A stretch of DNA of 64,000 bases from Bryoerythrophyllum caledonicum (lineage: Eukaryota; Streptophyta; Bryopsida; Pottiales; Pottiaceae), in assembly GCA_963971425.1 (NCBI GenBank), contig OZ020520.1, positions 5,746,553-5,810,552 of the forward strand, in the 5' to 3' direction. The position numbers were made by a program, and so were the translations under genes. Positions 10,139 to 40,776 of the stretch are shown piece by piece (positions within the stretch are counted from its first letter, which is position 1; each line of letters starts with the position of its first letter). The notes under the pieces were generated by a model. The model searched no databases. It was not told where the DNA came from and was given only the letters and a program-made list of their open reading frames with translations.

Positions 10139-11425
10139 TTCTTTAATCTCTAGACAACCGGCATCGGAAGAAACAATCAATAGATGCAAATTAAGTGGGT
10201 AAAAACACTAACCCAGCAGAATGTGTAGAGAGTGAGCTCCGCAATTCGTGGTGAGGGGAGGCACAAGGACTTAGTCTATAATCTCGAGGGATGAGCAGTA
10301 AGAGGTTGCTGGCCTTACTGAGAGCCCACATTGTTCGAGATCTAGACGTTGGTGAGGTTGGGGAGGCAAATCACTTTTGTTGGAAGCGCTCAAAACACTA
10401 GATCTGGACTTTTTGAGAGGTTGTGGTCAGGTCTTTGAGGGAGATTGTCGCAAGTTTTATCTGAAGCGTGGGAAACTAGTGTTGTGCATAGATCTGAACT
10501 CAATGACCCTCCTCAACCTTAGATCTGTTCAGATTGAGTGTAGTTAGATCGAGATCTGCGCCCACCACTTAGTCCTTGATCCTCCTTGATCCACGACCGC
10601 ATCATACACGCAAGATTGAGCACTAGATCAACACGACGCTAGTATCCGGCAACAACCTCTCACCATTCCAGGCTATTTCTTACTCATCTCATTGCTTTTA
10701 CACATTTTGGATCTCCACATACACTAGTCACAACACAATAGCTCTCACGCACACTAACCACAGCACTAAGCACAATCACCCTGCTACTAACCCTAGAATC
10801 TCTAGACACAACATTAGGACGTTTATATCTACACGTTGCACGCGGCAGCGCTGGAAAATTTTCTACAGATCCACACAACGCGCACGAGGAGCCCGCAACA
10901 TCAACCCAAAATCACTTCGCGCGCACTCAAGAACAACCTGCAACACCGCCAAGACCCCACAGATCATCAACAGCAGCAACAATCGACCTAGAGACGACCT
11001 GCGACAGGCGACCAGCAATCAAATATTAACAACACAGCAGCAAGCACATCAAGAGCACGAACAAACAAGATCACGGACCAACCAGGTAAGTATTCTTACA
11101 GAACCGTCATACTTTCTCTCAACACTCCTACAACCTCTATGCAACCTCTCCCCCCCCCGCAACAGGTGCCCCCTCCCCACACCCCATCCAGCTCCCTATA
11201 CTCCCTGTAAACCCAAGCACCCGCAGACAAGCACGAAGAGCGAGACAGGCACGATCCAGGAGCAAGAAACGATTCACGACTAGAGACAGACACAACATAG
11301 ACGAGCAAGAAACGAGACAGGCACACACAAGAAGAACAGAAGAGCACGAACAAGATCAGACAGACAGACAAGGAGAGGCGCGCACAAGGTATACAACAGT
11401 GGAGCACAAACAAGAAGACCAAGTA

Positions 11426-11569
11426 GACGCTCAACCACTCAGACGAAGACGATCAAGCAGGCACATAAGGAGAGCAGACGCGCACAGAAGAAACACAGAC
11501 GCTCAACCACTCAGACGAAGACGATCAAGCAGGCACATAAGGAGAGCAGACGCGCACAGAAGAAACACA
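11426..11569 (+). repeat. 72-bp direct tandem repeat, two copies
   Basis: Two adjacent, apparently identical 72-bp units (11426-11497 and 11498-11569) begin GACGCTCAACCACTCAGACG. If read in frame they would encode a 24-residue Arg-rich unit (DAQPLRRRRSSRHIRRADAH...). They lie in the 5' region of retrotransposon copy 1, where tandem units are common in LINE promoters. Confidence 0.85.
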
Positions 11570-11584
11570 GACACGCACAGCAGG

Positions 11585-12010
11585 TGCACAGACGCGGAAT
11601 GACTTGCGACACTCCCTGCACCAACCTCCCCCCTGGTCCCGACCTACCCCCCCCTAACTACCGACCCCCCCACGAACCCCGAGGCCCAACGGAACTCCCC
11701 ACGCCCCCGACCTCCCCCCTGACCGTGACAGTCTACCTCAACCCAGCAACCCCCCCCCGCTACCGACCCCCACTTGCTTGCGACCCCCCTGTTTTCCAAC
11801 CTCCCTCCCCTAGCGACCTCTCTCCTAACCCCCTACGACCCCCCCTCCCCTTGCGACCTTCCACAGACTCTTTTATCTCCCCCTGCGACCTCCTTCCCCC
11901 CAAGTTGTGACCTCCCCCCCCCATTTTCGACCTCCCCCCTCTTCTAATATTTCCCCCACTACCTCCCACCACCCTCTCTCCAACCTCCCTCCCCATATAC
12001 TTAACCCTCC
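11585..12010 (+). repeat. C-rich degenerate CGACC(T)CCCCC repeat
   Basis: The sense strand is dominated by runs of C separated by GACC, ACCT or AACC, as loosely repeated units of roughly 10-15 bp. It lies directly upstream of ORF1 in retrotransposon copy 1. The only long frame is a Pro-rich one that looks like a by-product of the composition. Confidence 0.7.
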
Positions 12011-12045
12011 ACCTATCCACCACTAGTAGAGCCCGACAAAACTGC

Positions 12046-14178
12046 ATGAGTCCTGGAAAACGGTGCCAATCCACTCCTCGCAACACCATAGAAAAGAAGA
12101 ATAGTGGAGTAGAAGTACATCGGAGGACCAATAGTGAAGAGGTATTAGAAAACCCCAAAAACAACCCACGTCTACGACAAGCCAAGTCTACCAATACCCC
12201 TAGAGTTGAAGCCACACCCTCAAAGACAAGACCATCAACTGTGAGGAAATCAACAACCCCAAACCCGAAGCACGACCCCACTCCTAAAACACGAGGTAGG
12301 AAGAAGAAAACCTTGGAGGCAAACTCTACCCCACCCCAACAACTACAATTAGAATTCCCAACACACCTCTCAAACGACCAAGAGGACACCCCTCTCACAT
12401 TCTTTAGAACAAACCAGAAGCGGAGGACTAATACCTCATTCCCCCCATCACCTGACCACAAAAAACAAACCTCATCCATAGACCCCAGGGACACTATGGA
12501 ACAACCCCAGAGAGAACCTAGCATTACCACCGAAGCCATGGACATAGAGAACGGCGAATCCACCTCCAAGGTAATCCATACCAACACAACCGCCACCTTT
12601 GACCTTCTAGAAGCACCACACCCTGCAAAGAAACAAAGAGGTAGTACCCAAGACCCAAAGCCTAGCAGTAGCACCCTAGACCAACCCACGCCCCGCTTCT
12701 GGTTGGGCTTCCCCAACATGGAGAAGCTTGCGAAGGATGCAAACCTTGAGCCACTATTTAGTGGAGAATGTGTAGCGGATATGATGACCAGAGGAGTACC
12801 CAAGGCAAAGGCGGAAGAGACCCTTAATGCTATAATATCCTACCCCCGAATCCCACAAATGTTATATCCCATGGTGAGAGAGGACGGTGTCCCAGGGCAA
12901 CACTACAACCTCACATAACTCCCATTCGATATCCCCACGAACCCTGACACTGGCCTATCATACGATTTCCGTGTGGCCATCTTGTTCGAACTGCCTAAGA
13001 CCCCATTGTTTCACGATGAGGTCAAAAGGCTTGCTAGAGATAGGCTTACCAAAATGAATATCCCCCTTGGTACTAGCCTCTTGGATCCCCTTGCCATCCA
13101 TTGCAAAGGAGTGAAGAAGGAAGGACAAAAGCATGTTTTCTGAGGGTTGATCAAACTACACTTGCTCTACCCGGAAATTGATGCCATCTCCCTACTTCAA
13201 GGAACAAGATACTTTATATTGCAACTCGACCCTATGGGACCGGCTACCATGGGGAAAGTTTGCAAAACATGGCATGCAGTGGCCCGACAAGGTTTATCTG
13301 TCAACATCAAGAGTGACAATCTATGTGGTATTCATGCGCATACATTGTTTTACAACGTGGTTCTGAATGGCTTTACCCGTAACCTTGAATTTGAAATTAC
13401 TGATGTCCAGAAACAGGAGAAGGAGCCATTTGCATGGATTGTAGCACCCACTCCTACCCAAGCGAAGAAACTAGCAATACACCAGATTACGACCTTCCAT
13501 GAGATCATCCCCGCGAAGCCCAGCAACTCTGGAACCTTTACAACCACTGATAGGGCCAAGAAAGATGCGCTCACACTCACGCTATCTCAATTACCAATCC
13601 TATTGAGCGTGGTTGAAACCACGGAGGCCATCACGAAAGCTTTGGAGGCCAAGAGCATTGTGAACATTTGGTTCCACAAGCAGATTAGTGGCAAGCACAA
13701 TGGCTCTGCCAACGTGCAAGTCGCTAATCCTATTGTCTATAGACAAAACCTTCACCAAACCTTCAACATTGGTTGCCACCAAGTTGAGATTCGACCCCAC
13801 CGCCGTAGCCTTGATGGCATTGATCCCCCCTCCACCACTTTGGTGGAGAAATGGGGATTCAACGACATAAACACCGCCTTGGTGAACACGGTTGCCGCCA
13901 TCAACCCCACCATCGTTCCCACCACCAACATACGTGACGAGATGGCTGCTATTGTGGCGGATGGTCACGAAAAACTCCGCTTGGAGTTATCTACTCTCAA
14001 GAAGGATATCATTCGAGAGACTCGAGAATACTCCGACGCCCGCAACGCCGAGGTATACTCGAAACTTGATGATGTTGAGAAACTAATGAGTGCCCCTCTG
14101 TCTGTGATGAAGGGTATCAAGTCCAATCGTGAAAAGCCATCCCTCCTCTCCTTGGATGACCCGTCAAACGTGGATTGA
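12046..14178 (+). pseudogene. Retrotransposon copy 1 ORF1 (nucleic-acid-binding-like protein), two in-frame stops
   Basis: One reading frame runs from ATG 12046 to TGA 14176-14178 (about 710 codons). It is interrupted by TAA at 12916-12918 and TGA at 13141-13143; between them the frame stays open and coding-like. The N-terminal third is basic and rich in Ser, Thr and Pro, with a KKQR/RGRKKK-type basic patch. The middle (about 12700-13600) is a folded region I do not recognise. The C-terminal part (about 13600-14100) aligns by eye with ORF1 of copy 2 (shared pattern SLDG..PST...GF.D.N.A..N.V) and ends in a predicted coiled coil (LRLELSTLKKDIIRETREY). LINE ORF1 proteins usually bind the element RNA; that role is inferred from position. 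ORF1 and the next long frame overlap at TTGA (14175-14178). Confidence 0.7.
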
Positions 14179-17100
14179 CCAAAGACCGCCCACGATCTCT
14201 TCAACAACATGGAGATCACCAAACTCCTACATACCTAGCTACATCTCCATTGGTAGTTGCATCTATCTCCATTACCTCGTCTATCTACCTTAGCACTCCC
14301 CTTTTCCCCCTCCTTCCAATAGTATTGTCAGTGATATATCTCAGTATATTTACTTATTATTGGTCTCTCTATACACCTACTATCCACCCTATTCTCTCTA
14401 TACTTTCTACCTCTCTAGAACTTGTTTTAGCTCCTAATAGGTATTTTGTAAACACATGTCATTGGTATGAGTATAAACCCATGAGAAGGCCACAACCTCT
14501 CCCGTGGGCTCCTCTAACTCATATGACAAAGTTATATGTTCAATACCACCACGATAATATACACACTTCTTGTCATTGCCAATGGCATTGGCATACTACA
14601 AAAATTTCCACTACCACACACATACCACACGCCAAAAACCATAAAATACCACCACAACTTTGCCAACAACAAAAGCAATTGACCACAAGCGACACATATA
14701 AACACCCTCACACCACAGTACTAATAGAGTGCAAAACACTACTAATAACTAATTCACTCATCAAAACACCACGCAAAGCCAAATACCAACCACAAAATAA
14801 GCTACCGCATATACTCATCACCCAAAAAGCTAGACACCTTCTCCCACTCACACACTCTCACAAACACATACTCCCCAAAATCAAAACACCATATACCACA
14901 AATATACTACACCGCCCCACCACACCACACCAACTATACACACAACTACAACCAAACCCCACCCCCGTTAACCACAACAAAAATACTAAAACCACAAACA
15001 ATAAACCAAAAGAACACCCAAAAAATACACATAAAACATTGAACCAAAACATACATACTAACACAAACATCAAAACAAACACTTATATAAACCCCAACAT
15101 ATACACCAACACACCTACATATAAAGACGTCCTCAATACCTCCTTCAATACTGTTATTAACCCACATAAAAAAATTCTTAAACACAACAATCACATACAC
15201 ACATGGCCAAACACAACCACAAAAATACACAAACAAACATACACACACCGATACACCATTAATAAAACAAAAACAACTACGCACATAAACGCATGGACAC
15301 AAAAAAAAGTCAACGAGGACTACAATTACACCCACTATAAACAAGAACAAAAAAAAAAACTCACTACCCACATACAAAATAAAAACACCCACCTACCCCC
15401 AAACAAACAAGATTTTAATAACATAACAAAGCCTCAAAAAATTATACATAAAACAAAAACTTTAAAATATAGCACTAAACATACATATCACAAACTCCTA
15501 CTACTTCTAGGAGGTGACATAGAAACCAACCCGGGACCCATGCCTAATATACTAAAAAGACACCCTACGCTACATAAGAAAAACGCCAAAATATACTTCA
15601 TACCTAATACCATAAAATTACAACCGGAATATGGACACATTGCAAAAGCTTTCGCACCTTTCTTAAAAAACACACATACATTACACCACACACATAACAG
15701 CACACATCCAAACATTGCCCAGTACATACAACAAAAAACTACACATCCACCACCCCACATTTTATACGCCCTAGTAGTCACTATCCATCCACACATAAAT
15801 GAATGTAACCATCTCCTAAATCCACAAAATTTGAACACAATTACATGGACCAATACACTTCTACAAACTTTACTAAACTTACAAAACCCGCCAGAACGAC
15901 ACATTCACACTCCACATCCGTACATAAAATTTCTTGAAGATAACCAAAACATTATAAACCATGAAAACTCAATACATAAGGAATTATATGACTTCCTACA
16001 TAGTCAAGCCATACCCCCCTCAAGGGAAACAATAAAACTAAAATTCCCTTACCTCCCTAACAACCTCATCAGTGAATCGCTAAAATGTTTAGACCCTATA
16101 CCAGAATACACCCACCCACCTCCACCTCTTCCCTACATCCCTCTACAAAATCAGAACATTAGATCAAATCAAGAAAATACACACATAATCACATGGAATG
16201 CCTCCTCTCTAAACACTGCCCTTCCTAGCCTACAAACATTGGCAACACACACAGACACACCACCGGCCCTCATAGTTATACAAGAAACAAAATTAACCGC
16301 CACGAAATCTACAAAATACATACAAAATATATTTCAAGACTATAAACTCATCTTTAATAATACACATACACTTACAAGATGCATTCAACAACGGAGACCA
16401 TACACACCGGGCCGCGGTGGCTTCCTTACACTAATACACAAAAAATATGCCTTCCCAGGCAACATCAACAAAATTCCTACCCCAATGCACATATCACCTT
16501 ACATTCAAATAATCAAAATCACTAACCACCCACTACAACCGTGGTTAATCTTCCACATGTATATGCCATCTCATCCCGAAGACACTAGATTTATCATAGA
16601 CATATAAAACACTATTACATCCCAAATTAATAATAACCCCAATCACACATACCTATTATGCGGTGACTTCAACAGAGACATAGCATTAATTGGTCGCCAA
16701 AATGGAAATCATAAAACCCCCCCTCAAAACATAGATTACCAGTGGCGCCGCTTCACAGAACACCTAAGTTTCACTTACATCAATACTGACACACAATTCT
16801 CTAGACAAGGTGGATATAATTATAATGATTGGAGTCTAATAGATGGATTCTATATAAATACAAATAACAATACACAATACACCTCTACAACAAACAAGGA
16901 TGTTATTCTCAACTCGGACCATTTACCTATACAATTGCACATCCCAAATAACACATTAATTAATAGAACTCCCATAATTCTAAACAATGACACTATACGC
17001 ATACACAACCCCATCCCAAAAAATAATATAGAAAAATTCAACACAAAATTCTTTGAAGAAAACTCCATACAAATAGACTCCCTCATAAACACTCTTGAAA

Positions 17101-20100
17101 ATAACAGTCAACTATCACAAGTACAATGGCAAGAAGCATGCCACACCCTAGACAAACTCATCAATAAAATCTCTGATACACTAGAACAAACTTGTAGAGC
17201 ACATACAATACCTCAAATGACAAAAAGGACTTCTCAACAAGGCGGGTACTTACCCCGCAAACTTTCTAAAACTTGGAAACAACACCTAACCACATACCAT
17301 GCTCTACAAAAAACCATTAGAATTGTAAACAACAACCCGCAATGGCGTATCCACCCCATATGCACTGAACTACTAACTCTACAACACACCCAAATCCCCA
17401 CCCCGCCACCTCCGGACCTTCCCCATGATACATGGATAAAAGATATCGCACTAATTGCAAAGAAAACCAACATACAAGCCAGGAAAATAACCACAAAATA
17501 CACCAAAGATAACATTAAAAAAGCCATCTCAAAATATAGACAACTACACGAAATCAGCCCCAAAAAAATTAACAAAAAAGTCTTTAAAAACCTTGAATCC
17601 CCGCCTATGGACTGTATCAGAGATCAATAAAATAATATTCTAACCAGCCCCGAAGACATTGCGAATGAAATATTAAACCAACAAACAATAACCAACAGAC
17701 CAACAGTACCAACATGCAATTATCAACCACAACATACAAACGAATGCACATGTGCAGTACGCCAATATCCATGGCATGACCTGGATGGATATACCCTTGA
17801 CAAACGAGGCGAATATGAAATTCCACTACATAAATACCTTTACAGAGCCACGTATGATACATGCCTTCAAAACCTTGGTAGCAATAAAGCCCCAGGTCCA
17901 GATCGCATACCAAACTCAATACTCAAAAACATGCCTCCAAGATTTCATAAACTATTATTCCTATTCTTCTCCCACTGCTATAAACAAAAACAAATACCGG
18001 ACTCATGGAAATCAAGTGCAACAATCTTACTATACAAAAAAGGCGACCCATCCATACTACCTAACCATAGGCCGATCGCACTAGCTAACACAATATATAA
18101 ACTCTTTACCAGCACACTCACCTCTATACTATCCTCATATGGTGAAAAATTCAAAATCCTACATGATAGTCAAGAAGGATTTAGAGCCGAAAGAAGTACC
18201 GCTCGACAAATTCAAACTATAATAGCCGCACTAGAAGACGCAAAATTTACTAACCAAGATATATACATATTATACATTGACTTCAAAAATGCCTTTGGCT
18301 CAATAGATCATGCCCGACTACTAGCAATAATGATGGACCTTGGTTACCCAAAAGAGGCAACTACACTTGTTGGAAACATCTACTCCCACTCATCCACTTA
18401 CTACATTGGTGAACACTTTGGAAAAACAAAACCTATACCTATTCAAAGAGGAACTATACAAGGGGACACCCTTAGTCCATATCTATTCATTATATTTTTA
18501 GAACCACTACTCAGATGGCTAGAAAGAGGCAACAACGGATATACTTTTGGCACATCACAAACCACAATAAACTCCGTCGCATACGCAGATGACCTAGCCA
18601 CCATAACTAACAAAATCAAATCAATCCAAATACAACTCAATAAAATTGATAGATATTGTAAATGGGCTGGTATAGACATAGGTGTCCCAAAATGTGCTGT
18701 TACCGGATGCCCAAACAAATCCAAACTGAACCCTACCACTTTCAAAGCCCTAATACAAGCCTCCAACATCAATTACCGCAACCAACCAATCCCTACACTA
18801 CACCAAAATGAACCTTACATATACCTAGGTACAAATCTTGTCCCCTCACTAAAATGGAAAATCCAAATTCACACTACAACCACGAAACTCATCAAACAAT
18901 GCAAAGACCTAATAACATGCCCAGCCACCATGAAACAAAAAATAAAAATGGTTGACACCGTACTACGCCCAGGTGTGGCATACAGTTTCTACGGAGTTCC
19001 ATACTCTATGCCAGCCATCAAAAAACTTGATCAAAAAATAATCGCCATACAAAAAACCATATGTGGATTACCAAAATGTATGTCAAACGCAATAACACAA
19101 CTCCCACATAACCTTTTTGGACTTGAAGCTTTCTCCCTCAAAAACGCATATCTCCGATGTATAGGCGAACAACTACAAAATGCGCTAAACGATAAAGGTA
19201 GACTTGGAAAAATATATAATGGATTAACTCAATATGTCCTGGCCCAACACGCTGGCGCCGAATACATACCCAGAATTAAAAAAAGTGACTGCATAAGATC
19301 ACCAATCACACGAACATTCTTCTTATTAAAACACATAGCTAAAGTCCACCTTAAAAGTACACTCCCAAACTTCCTCATCAACCCTACATCACTAGAAATA
19401 CTATGGCGCCAAGAAACACTAAACCACAACACACTCAATGCCCAACTCTCCCAAAAGCTACTACAAAAACTCCTCTCAAAAAATATTTTCGAACTAACCC
19501 AAATTACTTTACCCAACGGCACACACATCATGAACAATGAGGACTTCAAAACCTTCCACTTCACCCCAACCAAACTCATAAAAGTGCCCTAAATGTTGCT
19601 AAACAACTATTTTGCCATCCAACATGCCGCACTACATGTAATACTCCTTGTTACATACACCCATACTCTCATATACTCAAAGATACATTCATCACCCTCC
19701 ACAATAATGTATACCCAAGAAATACCCCCACACCAATCAATCCCCCTAACCTTCCACATACACACCATCTCCGCCCCCCAACATACATCCCCAAAAATCC
19801 TACCACATACCCCATTAATAACATCTTACGCCATAGACACATCCAAAACACAGACACAAATAACATACAAAATACCTACACTAAATATCTATGCCAATGG
19901 CAACACAATAATAATACATACAATAAATGGCTTCCCCAAAGAGACCTTTTCCCACGACACGACACTAATACTTCCAAATATAATACCGAAAAATTAAAAC
20001 AATACTACCAAAAAATTCAAAACAATACATACTCGGATATCATCCTAGCCCACCACCCCCAAGAACAAATTTAAGACTCAAGATCCGTAACACCACCCAT

Positions 20101-22561
20101 AATTATCCCACTCTTAAACATCTACACAACAGAATGTAACCCCGAAAATGATATTCTTACATCCTCAAACACAATTCAAATGGATAACAACCAAGCACAT
20201 CTATATGAAGAAAATGGCCGACATTTACACACCATCCCCGTCACTCGACTCCAATGGTTATGGAACCAAAACAATACAAAATTACAAACCCCAACAAACA
20301 TCGAACCACCGACCCAACCCTTTGAAACCGAACTAATATGGTTATACCAAAGATACAAATACCGAATACCATAAACGGACCCCCTAAAAAATGCGCAATA
20401 CACAATACCCACTCCAATCTTAGACTCACTAATCTCATCCTTTAACATCGAACAATCATACTTTTCCTCCCCGGTCACATGTTCTACCAAACTAAACAAA
20501 TTCTACTCACCTTATGAAAGAGACAAAATATTCGGATCCCTAGGAAAGGCCTTTGACTATAAATGGATCGGTAATGGTATAGCTCACCCCCACAACGAGA
20601 AGGACATGGAACAAGCCATACATTGGGCTAGACTTGCCGCAAAACACGATCCAAATAATACAAATACAATCATCATCACACCAAACAACAATTGGTACCA
20701 AAACAACAATCAACATTTAAACCCATTTCCAGATTCACATATCATTGCAGTATTTGAGGCAGATACAATACCATACGAAGAACCTACTATTCCACCCGAG
20801 CTAAAAAAACCCCGAATCGAGCCATCTACATTACAAATACTATGCGTCCATCATCAAAATCAAACCCTTGGCTCCCTAGAACAACTTGTTGAACTTACCT
20901 CCATAACAAACAATCTAGACATACACCCACTATACACAATACTGGCCCCACCAACACCCATACAAACCCCCGTAAACAAAAGTAAAAACTGGTCAAAACT
21001 AAGCTACGTCAACAACACATTAAACTACTACGTCACACCTCCCCCTCTACCAAACTACCCAACTCATACCACACCAAAATTTAACCCCGCACACAGTTAT
21101 TACACTGACGGCTCCTTTAAACCACCAGAACAAATTAGCCCGGGCTCTTGGCGCAGAGAAAAAGCTGGCTATGGCATATATAACTCTACCAAAGAAATCA
21201 AAATAGCCAAAAGACTCCATGGACTACAAAATATCCTTAGAGCAGAACTCATGGCCATTCACAAAACACTACAAATCATCACAACAAAATACAACAATGA
21301 ACCCGCACATATATTCACCGACTGTATAAATGCACTCTATCTACTAAACACTCAAATAACACACCCTACTCTTCACAATAGCCACCCCGACCAAATCATA
21401 TTAACGTCAATGGTCCAAATGATACAAAACCGTACACAAATCACAACCCTCCACAAAGTGAGAGCCCATGCCAACATCGATGGCAACGAACAAGCAGACA
21501 AATTAGCAAAAGAAGGCCGAGAAAAAACACACAAAAATGCTAAAGACCCACACGAACATGCCCATGCCACCCCATACTACTTTCAAAAAGAAGATTGGCC
21601 TTCCAAAGAAGATACCCCCGACAAAGGCCCGATTAGATTTTTGGGCAAATATCTCAAAAAACAAGACTCCTACAACAACCTTGATACAATCTCGGACAAC
21701 TTCCCTAACATAGAAAAGTGGACTAACAACAATGACATTGACAATGAACTCTCTACAAATTTTTGGAAAAACTCCATCATCACCGACTCACAAATCACAT
21801 GCCTTATCAAATTCCGTACCGGTCAATACATGGGAAATGCCCGTAAACAACTCTTCTTTGGAACAGAAAGATTCCCATCCATAACCTGCCCCATTTGCCC
21901 CTCAACGGACCCCGACACATGGCTTCATGTTCTACTCAAATGCCAAAACCACCACATACACTCTCTAATTGTTAAAAGACATAATAAAGCGGTATGAGAA
22001 GTCCGAAAACTAATCACCTCCTACAATAAATCGAGATGTTTTATACTAATGAACGCCGGCACTTTTAATAACTATCCACAAGAAAATACAGTCCCTCCTT
22101 GGCTACTCCCATGCTCATGTCAGACTCAAAGGTGCCACTGCAACGCTAGGCTCAAACCTGACATCCTTTGTGTTAAAGGTTTACCATATAATGACCCATC
22201 ACCAAATAACATCAACCAAGACTACACCATTCAATTCATTGAATTCACATATTGCAATGATAGATTTTCCCCGGAAACAATCCAAAATAAAATAGATAAA
22301 TACCAACCCCTTATTGACGACATCATTGCCCTCGGATGGAATGTAGACCCCCTTATTGTAATCACATCCGGCGCTCGCGCTACCACTTTTATCCCATCTA
22401 TGAAAACTCTGGAAGATACTTTCAAAATACCCATTGAAACAATCAAAACCACCTTTAAAAACATTAATACCATCGCTACCCAATATGCCATGTCCATTTT
22501 ACTGCATAAACGCAAAATTGAAAACAATCAAACCCTCCCTGATACACAAGACCCCCCTTAA
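14175..22561 (+). pseudogene. Retrotransposon copy 1 ORF2 polyprotein: 2A, APE, RT, RNase H, CCHC, RLE; disabled
   Basis: From 14175 to about 15480 the frame reads as Asn/Thr/His/Lys-rich low complexity and may not be translated. After the 2A motif come an APE endonuclease (about 16190-16920; IVIQETKL, LCGDFNRD, SDHLPI), reverse transcriptase (about 17960-18900; LYIDFKNAFGSIDH, AYADD at 18578-18592), RNase H (about 21090-21530; YYTDGSF, AELMAIH, FTDC, NEQADKLAKEG), a finger CPICPSTDPDTWLHVLLKC followed by KRHNKAV (about 21886-21997), and a C-terminal domain (22150-22500) with KPDIL, IQFIEFTYCNDRF and KIDKYQPLI, matching the R2-type restriction-like endonuclease pattern. Breaks: stops at 16605, 17628, 20072, 20372 and 21995, and a 1-bp frameshift at about 19584 in an A run, after which the frame changes once. 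Compared with copy 2, 16605 is CAA to TAA and 21995 is TGG to TGA. Confidence 0.85.
15496..15540 (+). other. 2A ribosome-skipping motif in copy 1
   Basis: The translated sequence reads LLLLLGGDIETNPGP followed at once by MPNI. It fits the canonical D(V/I)ExNPG|P signature, where the ribosome skips the Gly-Pro bond. Known 2A motifs occur in some APE-type LINEs. Here it would separate the low-complexity upstream product from the endonuclease/RT polyprotein. Confidence 0.85.
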
Positions 22562-22851
22562 TCTCCTCCCCTCGCTTTGATTTTTCTTGATTGGTTGGCT
22601 TTGTGGTTCTTGTCTGCTCGCTCGGTTGGTTTGTGGTTTTTTGGCTGCTTGCTTGATTAGTTGGATGGTTAGATAGTTGGGTGCTTTGTTTTGTAGGTTT
22701 ATGGCTACCCGTTACATAGTGTCTACCCTCGAAAGGGGGAAGTAGTTCCAACTTGCTAATTCTTTGTTCGGTGAGCATGGTCTTAGTAGTGGAACGAACA
22801 GACACTTTATTCACGCCGGTCCCCTCTCGGGAATCGGCGTTCTTCTTCTTC
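22562..22851 (+). other. 3' UTR of retrotransposon copy 1 with terminal hairpin and TTC tail
   Basis: The 3' UTR ends in a hairpin, CGCCGGTCCC (22814-22823) pairing with GGGAATCGGCG (22829-22839), then TTC repeats up to the target duplication. The block GTGGAACGAACAGACACTTTATTCACGC just before it is shared with copy 2, and so is a small CCCTCGAAAGGGGG hairpin near 22725. 3' hairpins of this sort are often the RT recognition site in LINEs; that role is inferred. Confidence 0.75.
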
Positions 22852-22865
22852 TTCTTTAATCTCTA

Positions 22866-24046: not shown

Positions 24047-24615
24047 GTGGGGTGGCACCTAAATTGGTGTCTTGTGCAATTCCAGGGATAGTGTCCACAC
24101 TGTTGCCAACTTGGACACCCTCCCGAGGGCTAAAAGTCCTTATTTTATCATGAAATTTTAGATACAAAACCATCTTTATGTTGAAAACATGTATACCAAA
24201 TTTCAAGGCCATGAGATTTATACAAAAAGATATTAAGATTTACCAACAAGGGGTAGTTGTAAGAAAAGTTTCACAGCTGCCAACTTTGACACCCTCCCAA
24301 GGATTGAAGAAATTTTTTTCCCATGGGATTCTTGGAGTGGAAACACCTTTATGTTAATTATACATGTGGAAAAATTCAAGTCCAAAAGACCCACAAAGAA
24401 AATGATATTCCAAATCTACCAACATGTGTGGGTGTGAGAAACAAAGAGTAACATCGATTCACAACTTCCAACTTTGACAACCTCCCGAGGGTTGAGAATT
24501 TGTTATTTCAAGACGAAATTTTTGTTACAAGATCATTGTTATGTTGATAACATGTGTGAAAATTTTCAAGGCCAATGGATACACACATAATAGTTATTCA
24601 AAATCTACCAACGTG
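24047..24615 (+). repeat. Left terminal inverted repeat, made of three diverged tandem units
   Basis: The repeat holds three diverged units, each with a CCAACTT(T/G)GACA(C/A)CCTCCC(G/A)AGG core: CCTCCC blocks at about 24118, 24292 and 24480, spaced 174 and 188 bp. Each unit continues with a stretch ending near (G)ATTTACCAACA or AAATCTACCAAC. A 61-65-codon open frame reads through part of both repeats but looks like a by-product. Confidence 0.8.
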
Positions 24616-29816: not shown

Positions 29817-29825
29817 GAAGAAGAA

Positions 29826-29848
29826 CGCCGGTCCCCGTAGGGCCGGCG
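29826..29848 (-). other. 3'-terminal hairpin of retrotransposon copy 2
   Basis: CGCCGGTCCCC and GGGCCGGCG form an almost perfect stem with a short loop. On the element strand the hairpin is followed by TTCTTCTTCT and then the target duplication. The matching hairpin in copy 1 differs in sequence but keeps the pairing, which supports selection on structure. Confidence 0.75.
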
Positions 29849-30053
29849 TGAATAAAATGTCCGTTCATTCCACCACTAAGTCCATGCCCACCGGGCATGG
29901 GTTAGTAGTATGGAACTACTACCCCCTTTCGAGGGTGGACACTATGTATCCAGTAACAAGTGGCCAAGAGCAAGGACCATAGGTCCCAAAAAGCTACTAA
30001 AAGGGAGGGCGTGTACGGTGGGATGCATGTTCGGTCAATGAAAAAGGGGGGTT

Positions 30054-33000
30054 TTAAGCTTCGGGAAGGGGTTGATTGTTTTCAAGTTTGCGTTTATGCA
30101 GGAGTATCGACATAGCATGTTGAATTGCAATAGTGTTAATATTTGAAAAGGTGGTTTTCATTGAAGTGATGGGGATTTTAAATGTTTCTTCAAGGATAGT
30201 CATTGAGGGAATGAAGGTGGTGGCTCTAGCACCCGCGGTGATGACAATGAGGGGGTCTACTTTCCATCCTAGTGCTTGGATATCGTCAAGTAGTGGTTGG
30301 TATTTATTTGTTTTGTTTGTAATAGTGTCCACGGAGAATCTATCATTGCAATATGTGAATTCAATAAACTGAATAGTGAGACTGGGGTCAATGTGGTTTG
30401 GTGGGGGGTCTTTGTATGATAGTCCTCTAACACATAGTAGGTCCGGTTTGAATCTTGCATTACAGTGGCATCTTTGAGTGCAACATATGCATGGTAATAG
30501 CCAAGGAGGGACCGTATTTTCTTGTGGGTTGTCATTGAAGGTTCCGGCATTCATGAGAATGAAGCACCGGGATTTGGATGATGATACAAGTAGTTTACGG
30601 ATAGCCCATACGGCTTTGTTGTGTCGTTTGACAATTAATGAGTGTATGTGGGGGTTTTGGCACTTGAGTAAGACATGTAGCCATGTGTCTGGGTCCGTGG
30701 TATTGCAAATTGGGCATGTTATTGTAGGGAATCTTTCTATTCCAAAAAAAAGTTGTTTACGGGCATTTCCCATGTATTGTCCGGTGCGGAATTTGATTAG
30801 GCATGTGATTTGTGGATCCGTAATTATGGGGTTTTACCAGAAACTGTTGGACAATACGTTGTGAATGTTTGGGTTGCCGGTCCATTTATCAATATTGGGG
30901 AAATTTTCTGTGAGTATTTATAGGTTATTTACGAGATCATGTTTTTTGAGGTATTTGTCCAAGAATCGTATGGGACCTTTATCGGGAGTTTCGCCCATAG
31001 AGGGCCATTCATATCTATGAAAGTAATATGGGGTGGCATGGGCGTGTTCGTATGGATGTTCGGCATTCTTGTGGGTTTTTTCTCTTCCTTCCTTTGCTAA
31101 TTTGTCGGCTTGTTCATTGCCGGCGATGTTAGCATGAGCTCGGACTTTGTGGAGTGTAGTAATTTGTGTGCGATTTTGGAGCATTGCAACCATAGATGTA
31201 AGGATAGTTTTATCCGGGTGACTGTTGTGTAAAGTGGGGTGTTTATGTGTGTATTAAGGAGATATAGTACGTTTATGCAATCTGTGAAAATGTGAGCTGG
31301 TTCGTTTGGGTATTGCGTGGTGATTATTTTAAGGGTTTTGTGTATAGCCATCATTTCGGCTCTTAGAATATTCTGGAGTCCATGTAGTCTTTTACCTAAT
31401 TTGATTTGTTTGGTTGAATTGTATATCCCATAACCAGCTTTTTCTCGGTGCCAATGTCCGGGGCTTACTTCGGTTGGTTCTTTAAAGGAGCCGTCAGTGT
31501 AGTAGCTAAAGTTAGGGTCGAATTTAAGGTCGGTATTAATTTGGTAGTTGGGGAGTGGGAGGCTCAATTCGGTAATAGGTGGTGCGGAGATGTTTATGTG
31601 GGGGATTTTAGACCATTTTTTGTTACGGTTTACTCGGATTGAAGTAGGTGTGGGAGGGGCAATTGCGGTGTATACCTTGTGAATGTTTAGATTTTTTGCT
31701 ATCAAAGTGAGATGAGTGAGGTTTTCTAGAGTACCTATCTCACGAGTTTGGTGATGTATACATAAGATTCGTAAGGTTGAAGGTTCAAGGCGAGGTGTTT
31801 GTATTTGTGGTGGTATAGTGGGTTCTTTGTAGGTCATAGAGTCTGCTTCAAATAGTACTATGATGTGAGAGTCCGGGAATGGACCTAATTGTGGTTTGGA
31901 GTTGTGGTACCAATGAGTGTCGGGGGTAATAATAATGGTGATGTTGTGGTAGGGGTCATTATTTGCCGCTAGGCGTGCCCAGTGTACTGCTTGTTGTGTA
32001 TCTTCTTCGGTGTGAGGGTGTGCAAGGCCTATTCCGCTCCACTTATAATCAAAGGCTTTTCCTAATGAACCAAAAATCTTATCACGTTCGAATGGGGAGG
32101 AGAATTTTGAGATTTTTGTAGAGCATGTAACTGGGGATGAAAAGTATGAGTGTGTAATATTCAGAGATGTAATAAGGTGGTCTAGGATAGGATCGGGTAG
32201 TGAATATTGTTCATTTTTTAGAGGGTTATTTTTGGGAATTCGGTATTTATATCTTTGGTATAGCCAAACAATTTCGGTTTCAAATGTTTGGGGTATTGGT
32301 TCAATGTTAATGGGTGTGCGTAGTGCGTTGTGGTATTGGACCCACAGCCATTGTAGTCTAGCGAGTGGTATGGTTATTAGGTGTCTGCCATTATCTTCAT
32401 ATATGTGGGCATTATCTTGTTGTATTTTGATTGTCTTTGTTTGTGTAAGGATGTCAGTTTCGGGATTGCATTCGGTTGTAAAGATGTTGAGGAGAGGGAT
32501 AATAAGAGGTGGCGTGACAAATCTTCTGTCTCGAGGTTGTGCTTGGGGGTGGTATATTTGTATGATATTCAGGTAATGAGCGTTTTGAGTTCTAATGTAG
32601 TATTGTGTGAGGATTTCGGTGTTATGTGAGGAAGCGTTTGGGTTGTGCCAAGGGAAAAGATTTCTTTGCGGGAGCCATTTGGTGTAGGTGGTGTTATTGT
32701 GGGGCCAATGACATAGGTATGACGTATATTGTTTGCTTATGTTGTTAGAGTCAGTATACTTTCTATGTTTGTGCGCGGTTATGTTGTTTATTGGATGCAT
32801 GGAAGGATTTTTTAATATATATGGTGGGGGGGCATGTGGTCGTGAATTTGGCGGGTTTGGGGGGATTAATGGAAGGTTGGTGTTGGGGTGGGTGTTATTG
32901 TGACCAATGATGTATGAGTCTTTAAGTGTGTAAGGTGGGGCGTGACTGGTGCAAAGGTTGGGGCATGTAGGGAGGCATGGGGGATGACAAAATAATTGTT

Positions 33001-36000
33001 TGGCAATATTTAGTGCACTTTTTATTAGTTTGTGAGGGGTACCGTAATATATTTTGTAGCTTTTATCGTCCATAAGGTGTGTTCCATTTGGTAGTGTAAT
33101 TTGTTTTAGATCAGTAATGTTTGCAGAATTTTTTTTTGTAGGAGTTTGGCGGATAATTGTCGGTCGAGTCTAGGGAGGTTATGTATTTCATTTGCCCAAT
33201 TTTGTTCAAGCGGTGCGGGGTCTAGTAAGAAATCTTCTAGAGTGCTTTTGAGAAATGTTTTGCCTACTGTTTTGAGTAGAAAAAGTGTGCGGGTAATGGG
33301 AGACCGGAGGCAATCAGATTTTTTAAGCCTTTGGAGGTGTTGTGCTCCTCCATAAATAGCAAGGATGTGCTGAAGGAGTCCACTGTAAATTTGTCCTAGT
33401 CGTCCCTTGTCGTTAAGTGCGTTTTGGAGTTGTTCTCCAATGCAACGTAGATAGGCATTTTTAAGGGAAAAGGCTTCTAATCCAAATAGTTCGTGGGGGA
33501 GTTGTGTTATGACATTGGGCGTACATTTGGGGAGTCCACATACTTTCTTTTGTATGGCTATGATTTTTCTATCAAGTTTGTTTATGGTGGGCATGGAATA
33601 AGGGACCGCATAGAAACTATATGAAATACCCGGGCGTATGACGGTATCTATCATTTTTATTTTTTGTTGCAATGTAGCCGGACATAGTGTGAGTTCATTG
33701 CATTGTTTAATAAGTTTTGTAGTAGTAGTGTGAGTTTGGATTTTCCATTTTAACGATGGGACTAGGTTTATTCCAAGGTATATATAGGGTTGGTTTTGGT
33801 TTAGAACCGGAATTGGTTGGTTACGATAGTGGATATTGGTAGCTTGGATAAGGGCTTTGAAGGCGGTTGGGTTTATTTTAGATTTGTTTGGACAACCAGT
33901 TACGACACATTTTTGAACCCCAAGTTCCATCCCGGACCATAGACAGAATTTGTCTATTTTGTCTAGTTGAGTTTGTAGTGATTTAAGGCGTCCAGAGATG
34001 GCCGCTAGGTCATCCGCATATGCGGCCGAGTTTATGGTGACTTTTGAGGTGCTAAAGGTGTAGCCATTATTACCTCTTTGAAGCCATCTCAGTAGAGGTT
34101 CTAGAAAGATAATGAAGAGATATGGGCTCAGTGTGTTGCCTTGGATGGTACCCCGTTGGATGGGGATAGGGCGTGTTTTGCCAAAAAATTCCCCAACGTA
34201 TGTAGTGGTGGAGTGGGAGTATATATTGCCAACAAGTGTGACTGCGTCTTTTGGGTATCCAAGATCGCTCATAATGGTTAACAAACGAGGGTGGTCAATG
34301 GAGCCGAAAGCGTTTTTGAAGTCAATATAGAGTATGTAGATGTCTTTATTGGTGAATTTTGCATCCTCAAGGGCGGCAATGATCGTTTGGAGTTGTCGTG
34401 TGGTACTTCTTTCGGCTCTAAACCCTTCTTGGCTTTCGTGTAATATTTGGTGTTTTTCCCCGTATGCCGATAGTATTGATGTTAGTGTGCTAGTGTATAA
34501 TTTGTAGATGGTATTAGCTAAGGCAATGGGTTGGTGGTTAGGTAGCTCGGATGGGTTACCTTTTTTGTATAATAGGATTGTTAAGCTTGTTTTCCAAGAT
34601 GTGGGGATTGATTTTTGTTTATAACAATGGAGGAAAAATAATGATAGAAGGTCATGGAATCTAGAGGGCATGTTTTTTAGAATTGAGTTAGGTATGTGGT
34701 CCGGTCCGGGAGCTTTGTTGGATCCCAAATTTTTTAGGCACATGTTATATGTATCTCTGTTATAGTATGTGTGGAGAGGGATTGAGGGTTCGCCTCTTTT
34801 ATCAATAGTGAATCCATCAAGATCATGCCACGGGTATTGCCTGACCCCGCATGTGCATGTAGATGTATGTTGTGGTTGGTAGTGACATGAGGGGGTGGAT
34901 GGTCTATTGTTTATGGATTGTTGAGAATGTATTTCGTTTGCAATGTCTTCTGGGCTGGTTAGAATGTTATTGTTTTGATCTAAAATGCAATCTAATGGTA
35001 AGTTTGTATTGTTTTTTAAAGACTTTTCTATTAATCTTTTTTGGGTTAGTTTCATATAGTTGACGATATTTAGAAATGGCTTTTTTGACACATTCTCTTG
35101 TGTATTTTGTGGTGATTTTCCGAGCTTGTTTATTGGCATCTTTTGCAATGACTGCAATGTCTTTTAGCCAGTCTTCGTGAGGGTTGTTGGGCGGTGGTAC
35201 TTGTGGGATTTGGGGGTGACGGAGGTTTTGTAGTTCAGAAAATATGGGGTGGGTTCGCCAATTTTGGTTAGTTTTAGCAATATAGATTGTTTTACGAATA
35301 GTGTGGTATGTAACCAGATGTTGTTTTCATTTATTTGCTAATTTTCTCGGAAGGAACCCCCCTTGTTTTGAGGTTCTAGATGTGAGTTGTGGGATAGAGG
35401 GTGCTTTACATGTTTTTTCTAGTGTAGTGGAAATTTCATTAATAATTTTGTCCAAAGAGGTGCATGCTTCTTGCCATTGTATGTGTGTTAGGTGTTGGTG
35501 GTTAGAGAGAGTTGCTATGAGGGAGTCTATATGTGGTGAGTTTTTTTCAAAGAATATTGTATTGAAGTTATCAAGGTTTTCTTTTGGGATGGGGTTTAGT
35601 ATTTTGATATCGTTTGAGTTTCTGTTTGTGGGAGGTCTACTTATAAGGGTGTTGTGAGGTATATTTAGCTGGATGGGGAAGTGGTCCGAGTTTAAGTTAG
35701 TTGTAGTATTGGTGATAGATGTGTATTGGGTATGGTTAGGTGTTTTAATGTAGAATCCATCAATTAGGCTAGTGTGTGTGTGATTAGTTCCACCTTGACG
35801 AGAGTATCGTGTATCTGTTGGAATCAGATATAGTTCTAAGTCATCCGTGTAGTTTCGCCACTGATAATCTATACCGAGTGGGGGGTAAAAACCTCTCCGT
35901 TTTGTCGTCCAATAAGGGCGATATCTCGGTTAAAGTCTCCGCAGAGTATTATTGTGTGGTTAGTGTGTGTATTTATTTGTGAGGTGATGGAGTTTTGGAT

Positions 36001-37110
36001 TTCCGGAATAAGCCTAGAGTCTTCGATGTGCGAGGGCATGTATAGGTGGAGAATAAGCCATGGTTGTAGGGGTTGGTTAGTAATTTCAATAATTTGAAGA
36101 TATGGTGATATGTTAACCGGGGTAGGGATTTTAGTAATATTCCCGGGGAAGGCATATGATTGGTGTATGAGCATGAGGAGACCTCCCCTTGCTGGTGTGT
36201 ACGGCATTCTTTGCTGGATGCATCTTGTGAGAGCATGAGTATTATTAAATATGAGTTTGTAATCGGGGAATGTTCTTTGGATGTATTTAGTGGATTTAGT
36301 AGCAGTTAGTTTGGTTTCTTGTATGGCAATTATGGCCGGTGGTGTGTTGCTGTGGGCGGATAGATTGTGGAGGCATGGGAGAGCAGTATTTAAGGATGCG
36401 GCGTTCCATGTTAGGATGTATGTATTTGTATCTATGGTGTTTTCATTATGATTCGCAGGGGGTATGTATGGAGTTGGTAGAGATGGAAATGTGTATTCTG
36501 GGATTGGTTCAAAACATCTCGTTATTTCCTTAGTTAGTTCATGTGGAAGGAATGGGAAGCGTAGTTGGATTGTGTTTAGTGTGGGGGGTGGGATTTGATT
36601 GTGTACAAAGTCAAAAATTTCTTTGTGTATGGAGTCTTTGTGTAAAATAATGTTATGATTCTCTGCTAGAAAACTTGTATATGGGTGTTTTGTATGAATA
36701 TGTCTTTCGGGTGGGTTGGGTAAGGTGATTAATTTGTTTAGGAGAGTATTAGTCCAATGAGTGATGCCGGAATTTTGTAGGGCTAATGTTTGGTTGCACT
36801 CTTCTAGAGAGGGGTGTACTATGATAATTAAAGCGTATAGGATGTGTGATGGGGGATGTGTAATTATTTGTTCAATGTAGTGTGCTATATGTGGATAGGT
36901 CATGTTATGTGTGTTGTGTAATTCATGTGTATTTTTCAGTAGTGGTGAAAATGTGCTGGCAAGGTGTTGGTACTCGGGGTGTAGTTTTATAGTGCTTGGA
37001 ATGAAATACATTTTTGCGCGTTTTTTATGGGCTGCGGGGTGTGTTTTTATTATGTTTGGCATGGGACCCGGGTTTTTTTCGATGTCCCGACTAAGAAGTA
37101 TTAAGATTTC
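30054..37110 (-). pseudogene. Retrotransposon copy 2 ORF2 polyprotein: 2A, APE, RT, RNase H, CCHC, RLE; disabled
   Basis: Open segments on the minus strand: 37062-35869 (start MPNIIKTHP; APE with IAIQETKL and LCGDFNRD), 35157-33106 (RT; LYIDFKNAFGSIDH, AYADD near 34010-34025), 33073-31097 (linker, then RNase H with YYTDGSF, AEMMAIH, FTDC), 31193-30918 (HKVRAHANIAGNEQADKLAKEG) and 30773-30054 (CPICNTTDPDTWLHVLLKC, KRHNKAV, then KPDLLCVRG, IQFIEFTYCNDRF, NKYQPLLDD). The last segment is the restriction-like endonuclease candidate. Breaks by comparison with copy 1: frameshifts near 35880, 35070, 33130 and 31190, and stops near 35325, 30926 and 30837. No intact product is possible. Confidence 0.85.
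37063..37110 (-). other. 2A ribosome-skipping motif in copy 2
   Basis: It reads CEILILLSRDIEKNPGP followed directly by MPNI, the same junction as in copy 1. The core DIExNPGP is kept, while the residues before it differ, as expected if only the 2A function is under constraint. Confidence 0.85.
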
Positions 37111-37194
37111 ACAGTGATAAATTTTGGTAGGGTAATGTTGTTGGTGATTTAGGTTTTGTAGGAGTTGTTTGGGTGGTTGAAGTTGTTGGGGTTT

Positions 37195-37371
<177 letters not shown>

Positions 37372-37528
37372 TTGTTTTGATTAGTAGTATATATATATAC
37401 TAAGGTCTTGGTTTTAGTTTTAGTTTTGTGTGAATTTTTGTGATGTTTTTTCCAGCATTTATTATTATTTATTGTAGTATATAAGTATACTATTGTATTT
37501 AGATTTATTGCAGCATTGTTTGTCAATA

Positions 37529-38155
37529 TTAGTTTGACGTGTCCATTTTGCCATCTATAGCACGTTGCTCCCGTTCCGAAGCTTGTGACTCGGCCGCCAT
37601 GATTGTTTGGATGAGTTGAGATCGGAGAGTTGTCATTTCCCCTCTAAGGGACTTGACCGTGTTAGCTTGCACCATATCCGCATATTGTCTTGCCTCTTGA
37701 ACGATTTCCCCCTTCATAGTCTTCATTTCCTTTCGGAGTTGTTCAAGGGTAATGCCATTGCCCTTGTTTGGTCCATTCTCCATGGCAATCACAGCATTGG
37801 CAACTGCCGAGTTTACATCTGAGAACCCTAACCTCGCAAGTTCATCCGTACTAGGTTTATTACTTCCATCTAAACTTTTGGGGTGGGGAGTGAACATGAC
37901 ATACTTTCCATGAATTTTCTTGCTTTGTTTGACATGTTTTTTGTATACTGCAGCGTTTAGACACTCAATGTTACAAGTCCCCACATGTCGCCCGTGCTCG
38001 AGTTTGAAGAATATATCAACCACATTCTCTTCACCGATTACGGACTTGATTCCACTTGCAAGTTCCTTTTCATTTTTTGTTTTATTGAGGTTTTTGGCAA
38101 TGAGAATAAGACGTGTGCCTCGAAGAACTGGCACCAGAGCTCGTGTTTCTTGTTC
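37529..38155 (-). pseudogene. Retrotransposon copy 2 ORF1, C-terminal part
   Basis: An open frame ends with TAA at 37529-37531 and begins after an in-frame TAA near 38168; it has no in-frame ATG near its start. The protein has an RRM-like pattern (TRLILIAKNLNK...VVDIFFKLEHGRHVGTCNIECL) followed by SLDGSNKPSTDELARLGFSDVNSA and a coiled coil (LRKEMKTMKGEIVQEARQYA). It aligns with copy 1 ORF1 from about 13600 onward. The N-terminal two thirds of ORF1 seen in copy 1 has no counterpart here, so this is a deletion, a subfamily difference, or a missing upstream exon. Confidence 0.65.
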
Positions 38156-40776
38156 CTTGCTTGGTTAGGGTAGCTGCTCTTCAACTGCTTCGCGTTGATC
38201 TGCGGCTTGATTCTGCTGTGAGTCTTGATGACTCTGCTCTGCACTTGTCTGTGACCTTCGTGGAGATCGTTTCCTAGTTTGGCTGATCTCTCCCTTGTTT
38301 GTTGCAGGTGCTGACCGGTCTGTGAGAAACATGCATAGATTAAGTTAGTGACAATCGACGGACAGGTATAACTCACAGCATACAATGAATTCGCAAAGCA
38401 AGGAGTAGAATGATCTTCACTGCTGGAGAGATTCCGATCTACGCGCGCGGAATGCAGCTTTCGACACCTTCGGTACTTCTCGTCACCTTCCAGGTACACG
38501 ATCTCCTCATGGGCTTGGTAGGGAGCGCAATGTGTCCACAGCATGCGGAGTGGACGTATGTGAGGTATGCCAGTTTGAGAGGGTTTGAGAGTGAAAGGGA
38601 GTCGAGTTATATACCTTGTTTTTTGCTGGTTCTTGATGGATGTAGTAGCGGTCATCGAACGTCGTCGTATTCTGTTTGTTGATTCGCTAGGGTTGGCTTC
38701 GACAAGGAGCGGTTTGAATGCGGCTAGTCGATCTTGATTTTCCATGAATTTTCTGTCTATGTAGTGGCGGCTAGGGTTTCGTCTGTGACTTTGTGGCTGG
38801 CCGTGTGTCCCTGTATATTTCGCACCTTTGTGTGTTCTGTGAGTTTTTAGCGATGTAATGCTATCAGTGGGGAGAAGAGATAGAGCGTTGGTAAGATTGC
38901 TTACCTGGTTCCGTGCGTACTTGTTATTTGTTTGTTGTCTTGAGGTTCTGCCTCCATGTTGTTGGCGTTTTTGACATTGGGCCTTCACTCCATGTGTAGT
39001 TAGTGTTGTTGGCTTCTCACGTTCCGTTGTTGTGTCGCTATCCAGCTGCAGAATTCTGTATCTAATTCTTTGTCTTCTTGTTGCTGCTTGGCTGGGGGAC
39101 TTGTGGTTCCTGTTGGCCAAAAACATGACGCACAAATTGGTAAAATATAAGGTAGGAGTACTCACCTTGGTCCCATGGGGTGACACGATGCTTCGTTTTT
39201 TGTTTTGTTTCTTGTTCTTGGCGCTCGTTGGATTAAATCTTTGGTGTCGATGCAGGTGTGTTGGTGTCGCCGCCGGTTCGGGATGATGCGCTGCTCGATC
39301 TGTTGTCCCCGGGCGATGCCGCCATATGTGTCGTCGCTGGATCTGTCGGCGTGCTTGTCGTTGGACATGCCCTTCGTGTGAAGTCGTTTCTGATGGCTTC
39401 TTATTTTTTTTTCCCTCGTTTCCATTCAGCTGCTGGTTCTTGTGTAGATTACCCTCTTTTCTGAATGCTGTTAGGTTGGGGGATATGTGGTTCCTGTAGA
39501 TCAGAAACAAGGAGCACAAAGGGGTTAGTTGTGAGGTAAGATTACGTACCTTGGTCCGGGGGGGGTGCGCGTCGCTGCGTTTGTTGGTTTGTGTCTTGCC
39601 CTTAACACCGGATTGAATGATCTTGTGGTGTTGTAGGTATGTTGATGTCGTCATCGATTCAGGGTGGTACTCTGTGCAGCCTTCTATCCAGGGGCGGTGC
39701 CACTCTATGCATCTTCGCTTGATCTTCTGCACCTTTCTCACATTGCAGCTGTCTTGTAGCTCTTTATGATAAGGATTAGATTTGAATATTGTATCTCCAA
39801 CAGCAATAACGGTTTGTCTTATGATTTTATGAGAGAAATATTGAGATGAAATAAGGTACTGGGAGAATGTGTACAACTTAGCTGTTCGACTGGATCGTCG
39901 TTTTTTCGGTGGTTTCCTTGGGTCTTTGTCTTCTGGGCTGTTGGAGTCTTTCGCCATCGGCAGCTGCTGTCTTGGCGGCGGATCTTGTTCTTGTTCGTGT
40001 GGCCCTATCGGTTTCAGCTCCTCTCCCATTGCGTGCTTCTCTTGTAGACCCTCGTACTTCGGTACCATCTTATGTTGATCAATGACGTTCTTCTTCACCT
40101 GTGGTTCTACTCTTTCTGCAGACTGTGGAGTACATTTGATCCTATGGTTGTTTGTGCCAATTTCCCCTGTGCCGGGAAGATTAAGCAACGGGTCTATTCC
40201 TATCATGTATACTAATGTATGTGAATTTTCAGTACAAACATTAATTTGACAATATGCAATATGTAGGGCATCACAGAGTAACTTAGCTGGTTTCGCATAA
40301 TGTCGACCGTTGCAGAATCTTGTGTCTCGGCAGCTGACTTCACTTTCTTGCAAGAAACACTGTGTCTTCATGGAATCACTAGAGTCCTAGTAGAGGAGGG
40401 ATTTGATGTGTGGTATCACGATGGTGTAGTGGTAACCAAATCTCGAACTAATTGACTTAGAGTTGGTATGATAAGTGCAACATCTAGATCTAGATCTGGG
40501 CCAACACAGAGCCCCGCTTCAGATCTACTCTCCCAAACTAGTACTAGTTTGTTGCACCTTCACACAACTTTGTACCAATCGATCTAAGATTTGCAATCCC
40601 TCTCAACATTTTCCTCATCAAACGCATACCAATCAGCAACAGATAATACACACCGGGATTTACAATGAGCCCAGCAGCCCTCATTGTTGTGTGTAGAGTA
40701 TTTGCGCCTAACATCAAAAGTCCCTCCTCACCAGGATTTGCGGAGCTACTCCTCTCTCATCTCACCCGCCCATTGT
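38156..40776 (-). other. 5' region of copy 2 with tandem exon/intron-like units
   Basis: On the minus strand, consensus donors follow ACCAAG or ACCAG at 39550, 39166 and 38905. The first two are paired with acceptors ending CTACAG and CAACAG, giving two candidate introns of exactly 56 nt each (39549-39494 and 39165-39110); both are followed by GAACCACA(A/T)(A/G)TCCCCCA. A third candidate runs 38904-38837. A larger one, 38614-38320, has donor AACAAG|GTATAT and acceptor CTCACAG. The repeated donor-intron-acceptor layout suggests tandem duplication of a unit of about 385 bp. A 777-codon frame (40371-38038) is open straight through these introns; I do not recognise a domain in it and treat it as unproven. 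Confidence 0.5.

Follow-up and report, generated by a model that had tools for sequence, protein, structure and literature searches.

Two copies of a LINE and their domains

We analysed a 64,000-nucleotide stretch of contig OZ020520.1 (called the window below) that holds, besides the exons of a trehalase gene and other features, two complete but decayed copies of a long interspersed nuclear element (LINE). This element is very probably a recently active non-long-terminal-repeat retrotransposon of the Dualen type. Its complete copies, as far as examined, measure ~10–16 kb, and its main polyprotein carries, in order, a 2A peptide, an apurinic/apyrimidinic-type endonuclease (APE), a reverse transcriptase (RT), a PCIF1-like domain, an RNase H, a CCHC-RHN module and a restriction-like endonuclease (RLE). 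Our analysis establishes this architecture, the fold of the second nuclease, the clade of the RT, the unbroken frames of other copies, a structured 3' RNA and target site duplications (TSDs) of 12–14 bp at differing sites.

Copy 1 occupies 10153..22851 (+). A preliminary description of this DNA had taken that interval for one LINE, and it is exactly one insertion: the 14-bp TSD TTCTTTAATCTCTA directly adjoins both ends (10139..10152 and 22852..22865, both +), and its initial TTC could be assigned to the element's (TTC)n tail instead. Copy 2 occupies 29817..40776 (−) and is bounded by the 13-bp TSD TGGCCACCACCGG at 40777-40789 and 29804-29816. Over the DNA between the vicinity of the 2A peptide and the stop codon the two copies are ~71% identical, and both are decayed. 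The main frame of copy 1 is interrupted by stops at 16605, 17628, 20072, 20372 and 21995 and changes frame near 19.55 kb, its first open reading frame (ORF1) has stops at 12916 and 13141, and the coding region of copy 2 is split over several frames. We considered an alternative genetic code for the stops of copy 1 and rejected it; simple decay suffices, because their counterparts in copy 2 are Q at one of the five positions and N, R, K or W at the others, and because sibling copies elsewhere in the genome are open under the standard code. A third LINE 3'-end fragment of 55 bp lies at 45372-45426 (+).

The ORF1 remnant of copy 1 (13144..14178, +) has no Pfam match and aligns by BLASTP to that of copy 2 (37532..38164, −) at 7e-18, with ~30% identity over 189 amino acids. 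The 2A-like peptide of copy 1, YHKLLLLLGGDIETNPGP (15486..15539, +; LLLLLGGDIETNPGP), recurs in sibling copies and has a counterpart in copy 2, ILILLSRDIEKNPGP (37063..37119, −); a CAA microsatellite at 37109-37423, which reads as poly-Q in one frame, lies immediately upstream of the latter. In three of the eight siblings fetched (L018+L011, L020+L014 and L025+L026) there is a second 2A-like motif further upstream, the two motifs being GELEINPGP and GDIETNPGP, ~800–1,050 codons apart. Long frames are open before the last 2A, but we do not claim them as coding; they may be compositional, because the strand contains little T and G and one sibling (copy C) has three frames open together.

Between the 2A peptide and the APE of copy 1 is a region with no Pfam match (15540..16180, +, end approximate). 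The APE follows at 16180..16950 (+, borders approximate) with TWNA, QETK, GDFN, SLIDG and SDH all present, and that of copy 2 is split over two frames (35650..36430, −, borders approximate). Its Pfam match is weak in copy 1 (Exo_endo_phos_2, 0.0044), 1.3e-4 in copy 2 (Exo_endo_phos) and stronger than in copy 1 in the unbroken sibling L011 (Exo_endo_phos, 1e-5). The RT, with YADD and a thumb, lies at 17631..19592 (+; RVT_1, 4.3e-28) in copy 1 and at 33109..35163 (−; RVT_1, 2.1e-27) in copy 2, and its best PDB match is R2 (7.3e-30). RNase H is found at 21095..21520 (+; PF00075, 2.4e-13) in copy 1. In copy 2 it is broken (RNase_H, 6.1e-5, partial and below the Pfam cut-off) and shares the interval 30603..31588 (−) with the CCHC-RHN module.

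The C-terminal part of the polyprotein consists of a CCHC-RHN module (21887..21994, +, in copy 1), which matches the profile of R2, and an RLE with the motifs PD, E and K..KY (21998..22558, + in copy 1; 30057..30602, − in copy 2). The preliminary description had read the C-terminal motifs as a restriction-like nuclease standing beside the APE in a single element; all of the APE, RT, RNase H, CCHC and C-terminal nuclease motifs that it named are present, both nucleases are found, and its interpretation is supported by a profile match to the RLE of R2 and by a model of the CCHC-RLE region of copy 2 (predicted local distance difference test score, pLDDT, 86.7), which has the same fold as R2 (9nl2, 9nl3, 9dou, 8gh6). 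The APE thus lies N-terminal to the RT and the RLE C-terminal to it, and an RNase H is present, all as in Dualen/RandI; the R2 group is marked by an RLE and no APE, and an APE is present here.

Between the RT and the RNase H is a domain with the methyltransferase fold of PCIF1 (20189..21031, + in copy 1; 31589..32416, − in copy 2). Copy 1 matches PF12237 at 6.9e-9 and, by profile-to-PDB comparison, PCIF1 at 1.6e-9, and the copy 2 domain was modelled with a pLDDT of 88.6; sequence and fold both correspond to the PCIF1 core, human residues 426-668. The catalytic motif NPPF is kept in none of the 15 sequences inspected. Its position reads HPHN in copy 1, HPHT in copy 2, HPHN in siblings L027 and L028, and NPEY in two deep relatives, P0008 and P0020. 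We do not claim a chromodomain between the RT and this domain: a profile that included P0008 matched mostly chromodomains (best 9.5e-4), a control without the P0008 row gave no matches, Pfam found none on nine pieces or proteins, and copy 1 alone gave 0.011. Weak chromodomain-like sequence does stand at that place in P0020 (0.099) and P0008.

The final ~140 bases of both copies, a hairpin followed by a (TTC)n tail in copy 1 (22713..22851, + in copy 1; 29817..29955, − in copy 2), fold better than shuffled sequences (z scores of −3.83 and −6.02, respectively). Among eight copies, double changes that preserve pairing occur at least once in seven of the 46 predicted pairs. Rfam gives no match at E≤0.1 in 22500-30100.

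Clade, relatives and recent activity

For the RT tree, 19 of 123 proteins were dropped as having an incomplete RT, P0018 and P0022 were restored with their partial sequences, and the tree was built from 63 of the 111 rows so obtained; none of the rows is a named Dualen, RandI, I or Tad sequence, and groups were named after the tree had been seen. The window copies fall in a clade of 21 rows with support of 100/99, whose sole named member is P0018 from the volvocine alga Pleodorina starrii, the others being unnamed proteins, and both L1 and R2 rows lie outside it. In approximately unbiased (AU) tests, forcing the window group together with L1 cost 77 log-likelihood units (p-AU 2.5e-5) and forcing it with R2 cost 44 (p 1.7e-4), so that it belongs to neither. 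The RT tree, a check proposed in the preliminary description, thus places the element outside these two single-nuclease clades and in one clade with Pleodorina. Within the same clade P0007 has APE, RT, PCIF1-like and RNase H matches together with RLE motifs, and other members show parts of this set. Of 12 relatives scanned, nine match PF12237 at E≤0.0011. One of these, P0009, is the sister of Pleodorina P0018, which itself stops short of the region; P0009 carries the PCIF1-like match (0.0011), and therefore the clade seems to have had the domain from early on. A protein assigned to a Candidatus Nitrosocosmicus metagenome-assembled genome, P0128, is 52% identical to the PCIF1-RNase H stretch of the LINE, and therefore that archaeal bin probably contains eukaryotic DNA.

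We searched the host genome (437 Mb in 894 contigs, chromosome-scale contigs among them) for further copies, scoring the best candidates only, so that the counts are lower bounds biased to intact copies. The RT search scored the best 68 of 6,674 first-look candidates. In the RLE search the best 150 of 8,101 candidates are 93–100% identical to the RLE of copy 1, which excludes a chance origin of that domain, and eight of the 150 contain a stop. Of 2,614 PF12237 candidates the best 150 were scored, and at least 33 rows have the same score and a frame of 3,087 codons; none of 14 control genomes gave a match to PF12237. Some members of this young subfamily stand in pairs in the same orientation, ~10.1–10.9 kb apart, as if head to tail (C7:404136/414599, C8:18486971/18497868, C6:22432522/22442618).

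Sibling copies carry one unbroken frame of 2,349 codons that spans, in this order, the 2A, the APE, the RT, the RNase H and the C-terminal nuclease, so that the motifs of the latter stand in the same frame as the other domains. Pfam matches the 2,349-residue translation of L011 to Exo_endo_phos (1e-5), RVT_1 (4.3e-26), PCIF1_WW (2.1e-10) and RNase_H (1.7e-12), and that of L027 likewise. Two insertions from the 33 rows lie on different contigs and are identical over 9,895 bp except for 2 mismatches, and copies B and H are 98.6–99.0% identical; by these comparisons the element appears to be recently active. Complete insertions with TSDs range from 9.9 kb to ~15.9 kb, and their sites differ among the copies examined. 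Ten of 12 copies have exact TSDs (12 bp in six, 13 bp in three, 14 bp in one), these lengths being upper bounds because in several the tail could account for up to three of the bases; in copies B and J, where the element start was located independently by means of a sister copy, the TSD is within 4 bases of it. In two sibling copies, L025+L026 and L029+L027, ~51 and ~39 unshared bases, respectively, follow the 5' TSD before the sequence in common with a near-identical sister begins.

Between copies 1 and 2 the ratio of nonsynonymous to synonymous differences (pN/pS) is 0.20 for the RT, 0.21 for the RLE, 0.08 for the CCHC module and 0.29 and 0.37 for the two halves of the APE, values that are only qualitative because pS is near saturation. 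On this sequence evidence both nucleases and the PCIF1-like domain appear to be under constraint.

A proposed mode of integration and its alternatives

These findings are consistent with the following scheme of integration. One or more 2A peptides would release the N-terminal part of the polyprotein during translation, and the RT would recognise the element's own RNA through the 3' hairpin and UUC tail. In target-primed reverse transcription one nuclease, most likely the APE, would nick the first strand and prime synthesis; the RLE, held by the adjoining CCHC module as in R2, would cut the second strand ~12–14 nt away, and RNase H would remove the RNA. The second-strand cut is given to the RLE and the first to the APE because the RLE keeps the R2 arrangement with its CCHC module, and the narrow range of TSD lengths suggests two cuts of fixed geometry.

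Several observations weigh against an active Dualen-type element that works in this way. The assignment of strands to the two nucleases is a guess. The Pfam scores of the APE are weak, the best in the element being 1e-5, and SDH is absent from the APE of one of the eight siblings (copy F). No TSD was found in two of the 12 copies (C and D), copy E has in addition an unrelated 12-base match to its 3' flank, random windows share at least 11 bases in 4 of 3,000 trials, and the possible loan of TSD bases from the tail and the near-saturated pS, given above, count on the same side. Independent changes in the 3' RNA are few because the eight copies are close kin, and some cells break predicted pairs. 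PF12237 was not found in three of the 12 relatives (P0011, P0015 and P0017). Finally, a cysteine protease is reportedly a feature of Dualen in its original description (Kojima and Fujiwara 2005); Pfam matched no such protease in copies 1 and 2, in the frames of two siblings read onward from the 2A, or in a further set of six upstream pieces, four frames of ORF1 and two pieces from the N-terminal part of the second ORF. Josephin is listed for the relative P0018 and is weak in P0007 (0.0074). Visual inspection of P0015, P0017 and P0008 had suggested PHD, OTU and Ulp1-like modules, which Pfam did not bear out.

The alternative that survives best, though we think it rather unlikely, is that the RLE no longer cuts DNA and serves in target or RNA binding only, with the APE making both cuts. 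In its favour, the insertions stand at differing sites and carry TSDs, whereas most RLE-encoding LINEs are target-specific (PMC4640811); against it, PD, E and K..KY are kept in each of the six siblings searched at the C-terminus, and the pN/pS of the RLE is 0.21.

The role of the PCIF1-like domain admits a second alternative, namely that it is still an active methyltransferase despite its altered motif and acts on RNA of the element or of the host. Its fold and sequence match PCIF1, it recurs in relatives, and P0008 and P0020 have NPEY; but NPPF itself is missing from all 15 sequences inspected, the window copies have HPHN and HPHT, and in Drosophila PCIF1 the replacement of F by H in NPPF could account for the absence of m6Am (N6,2'-O-dimethyladenosine; PMC9479742). 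We consider activity of this kind improbable, and the domain is probably an RNA-binding (perhaps 5'-end) or scaffold module and not a methyltransferase. A more specific idea, likewise improbable, is that the LINE lineage captured the PCIF1 core, lost the catalytic motif and uses the domain to sense whether its own RNA has a capped 5' end. Such sensing would license the second-strand cut by the RLE only after a full-length capped template had been copied. If true, such a cap sensor would favour full-length insertion of elements of 10–16 kb and explain the keeping of two nucleases. The domain in any case connects LINE biology with mRNA-cap biology; among the papers listed by a literature search that covered few subscription papers, none reports a PCIF1-like domain in a LINE in its title or in the beginning of its abstract.

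That the element is a standard I-like LINE, with an APE and an RNase H, whose RLE is an illusion of short chance motifs, is extremely improbable: I-group LINEs do combine APE and RNase H (PMC4640811), Pfam gives no RLE match (best VRR_NUC, 0.005, in one of 14 rows) and the RT tree lacks a named I-clade row, but the RLE profile match to R2 and the predicted fold speak against it.

Neighbouring features and comparison with known systems

Between the two LINE copies, 24040-27137 consists of 574-bp inverted arms, 99% complementary, around ~1,950 bp whose minus-strand frame, read by eye, resembles a Tc1/mariner transposase; an ORF at 54513-54983 (+) resembles, also by eye, a fragment of a Tc1/mariner-type transposase. 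A 237-bp repeat occurs three times in 52148-54130, and a related 131-bp stretch lies next to LINE copy 2 (29585-29715). The trehalase exons (47781-50967, +) match the trehalase 7e9u/7e9x best, at 1.2e-52 versus 2.6e-19 for the next trehalase; we take 7e9u/7e9x to be from Arabidopsis. That the host is instead a streptophyte alga or another eukaryote, in which case the element would extend the known range less, is rather unlikely: the sole named member of its RT clade is a volvocine alga and cryptophytes have LINE/Dualen annotations already (PMC12747079), but the trehalase match and the 437-Mb genome with its chromosome-scale contigs speak against it. The exons labelled CFAP70 in the preliminary description gave at least six matches among the 7,991 candidates with most words in common, and no PDB match; scans of viral contigs gave nothing.

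The second half of the LINE integration reaction has been called very poorly understood (PMC6895275), and it has been proposed that APE-type LINEs arose when an APE replaced the RLE (PMC4640811). An element that has both nucleases and was recently active in what is probably a plant is useful because of that proposal, and the combination of a constrained APE and RLE, near-identical recent copies and TSDs of 12–14 bp would let simple mutants assign the two cuts.

Dualen/RandI is the group described as having both nucleases (PMC3636483, PMC4640811). It is listed from green algae (PMC4438587), was found in all species annotated in PMC8226300, and LINE/Dualen annotations are reported from cryptophytes (PMC12747079). 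Our element resembles it in joining APE and RLE to an RT and an RNase H, and differs in its 2A peptides, in a PCIF1-like domain that does not appear in the portions of the Dualen descriptions available, in the lack of a detected cysteine protease, and in a host that is probably a land plant; this comparison is between published descriptions and our element. With R2 it shares a CCHC-RHN and RLE module of the same fold, and R2 is the best PDB match of its RT; however, R2-group elements have an RT followed by an RLE without APE (PMC3636483), R2 inserts into ribosomal DNA whereas the sites here differ and carry TSDs, and grouping of the RTs is rejected. Plant L1 has the same APE-RT order and can carry an RNase H (PMC4640811), but the RT grouping is rejected here too (p=2.5e-5), and the RLE and PCIF1-like domains are extra in our element. 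With PCIF1 itself, the cap-specific m6Am methyltransferase (6irv, 6irx), the element shares the core methyltransferase region, but here NPPF is lost, the earlier parts of PCIF1 lie outside the match, and the domain is embedded in a retrotransposon polyprotein.

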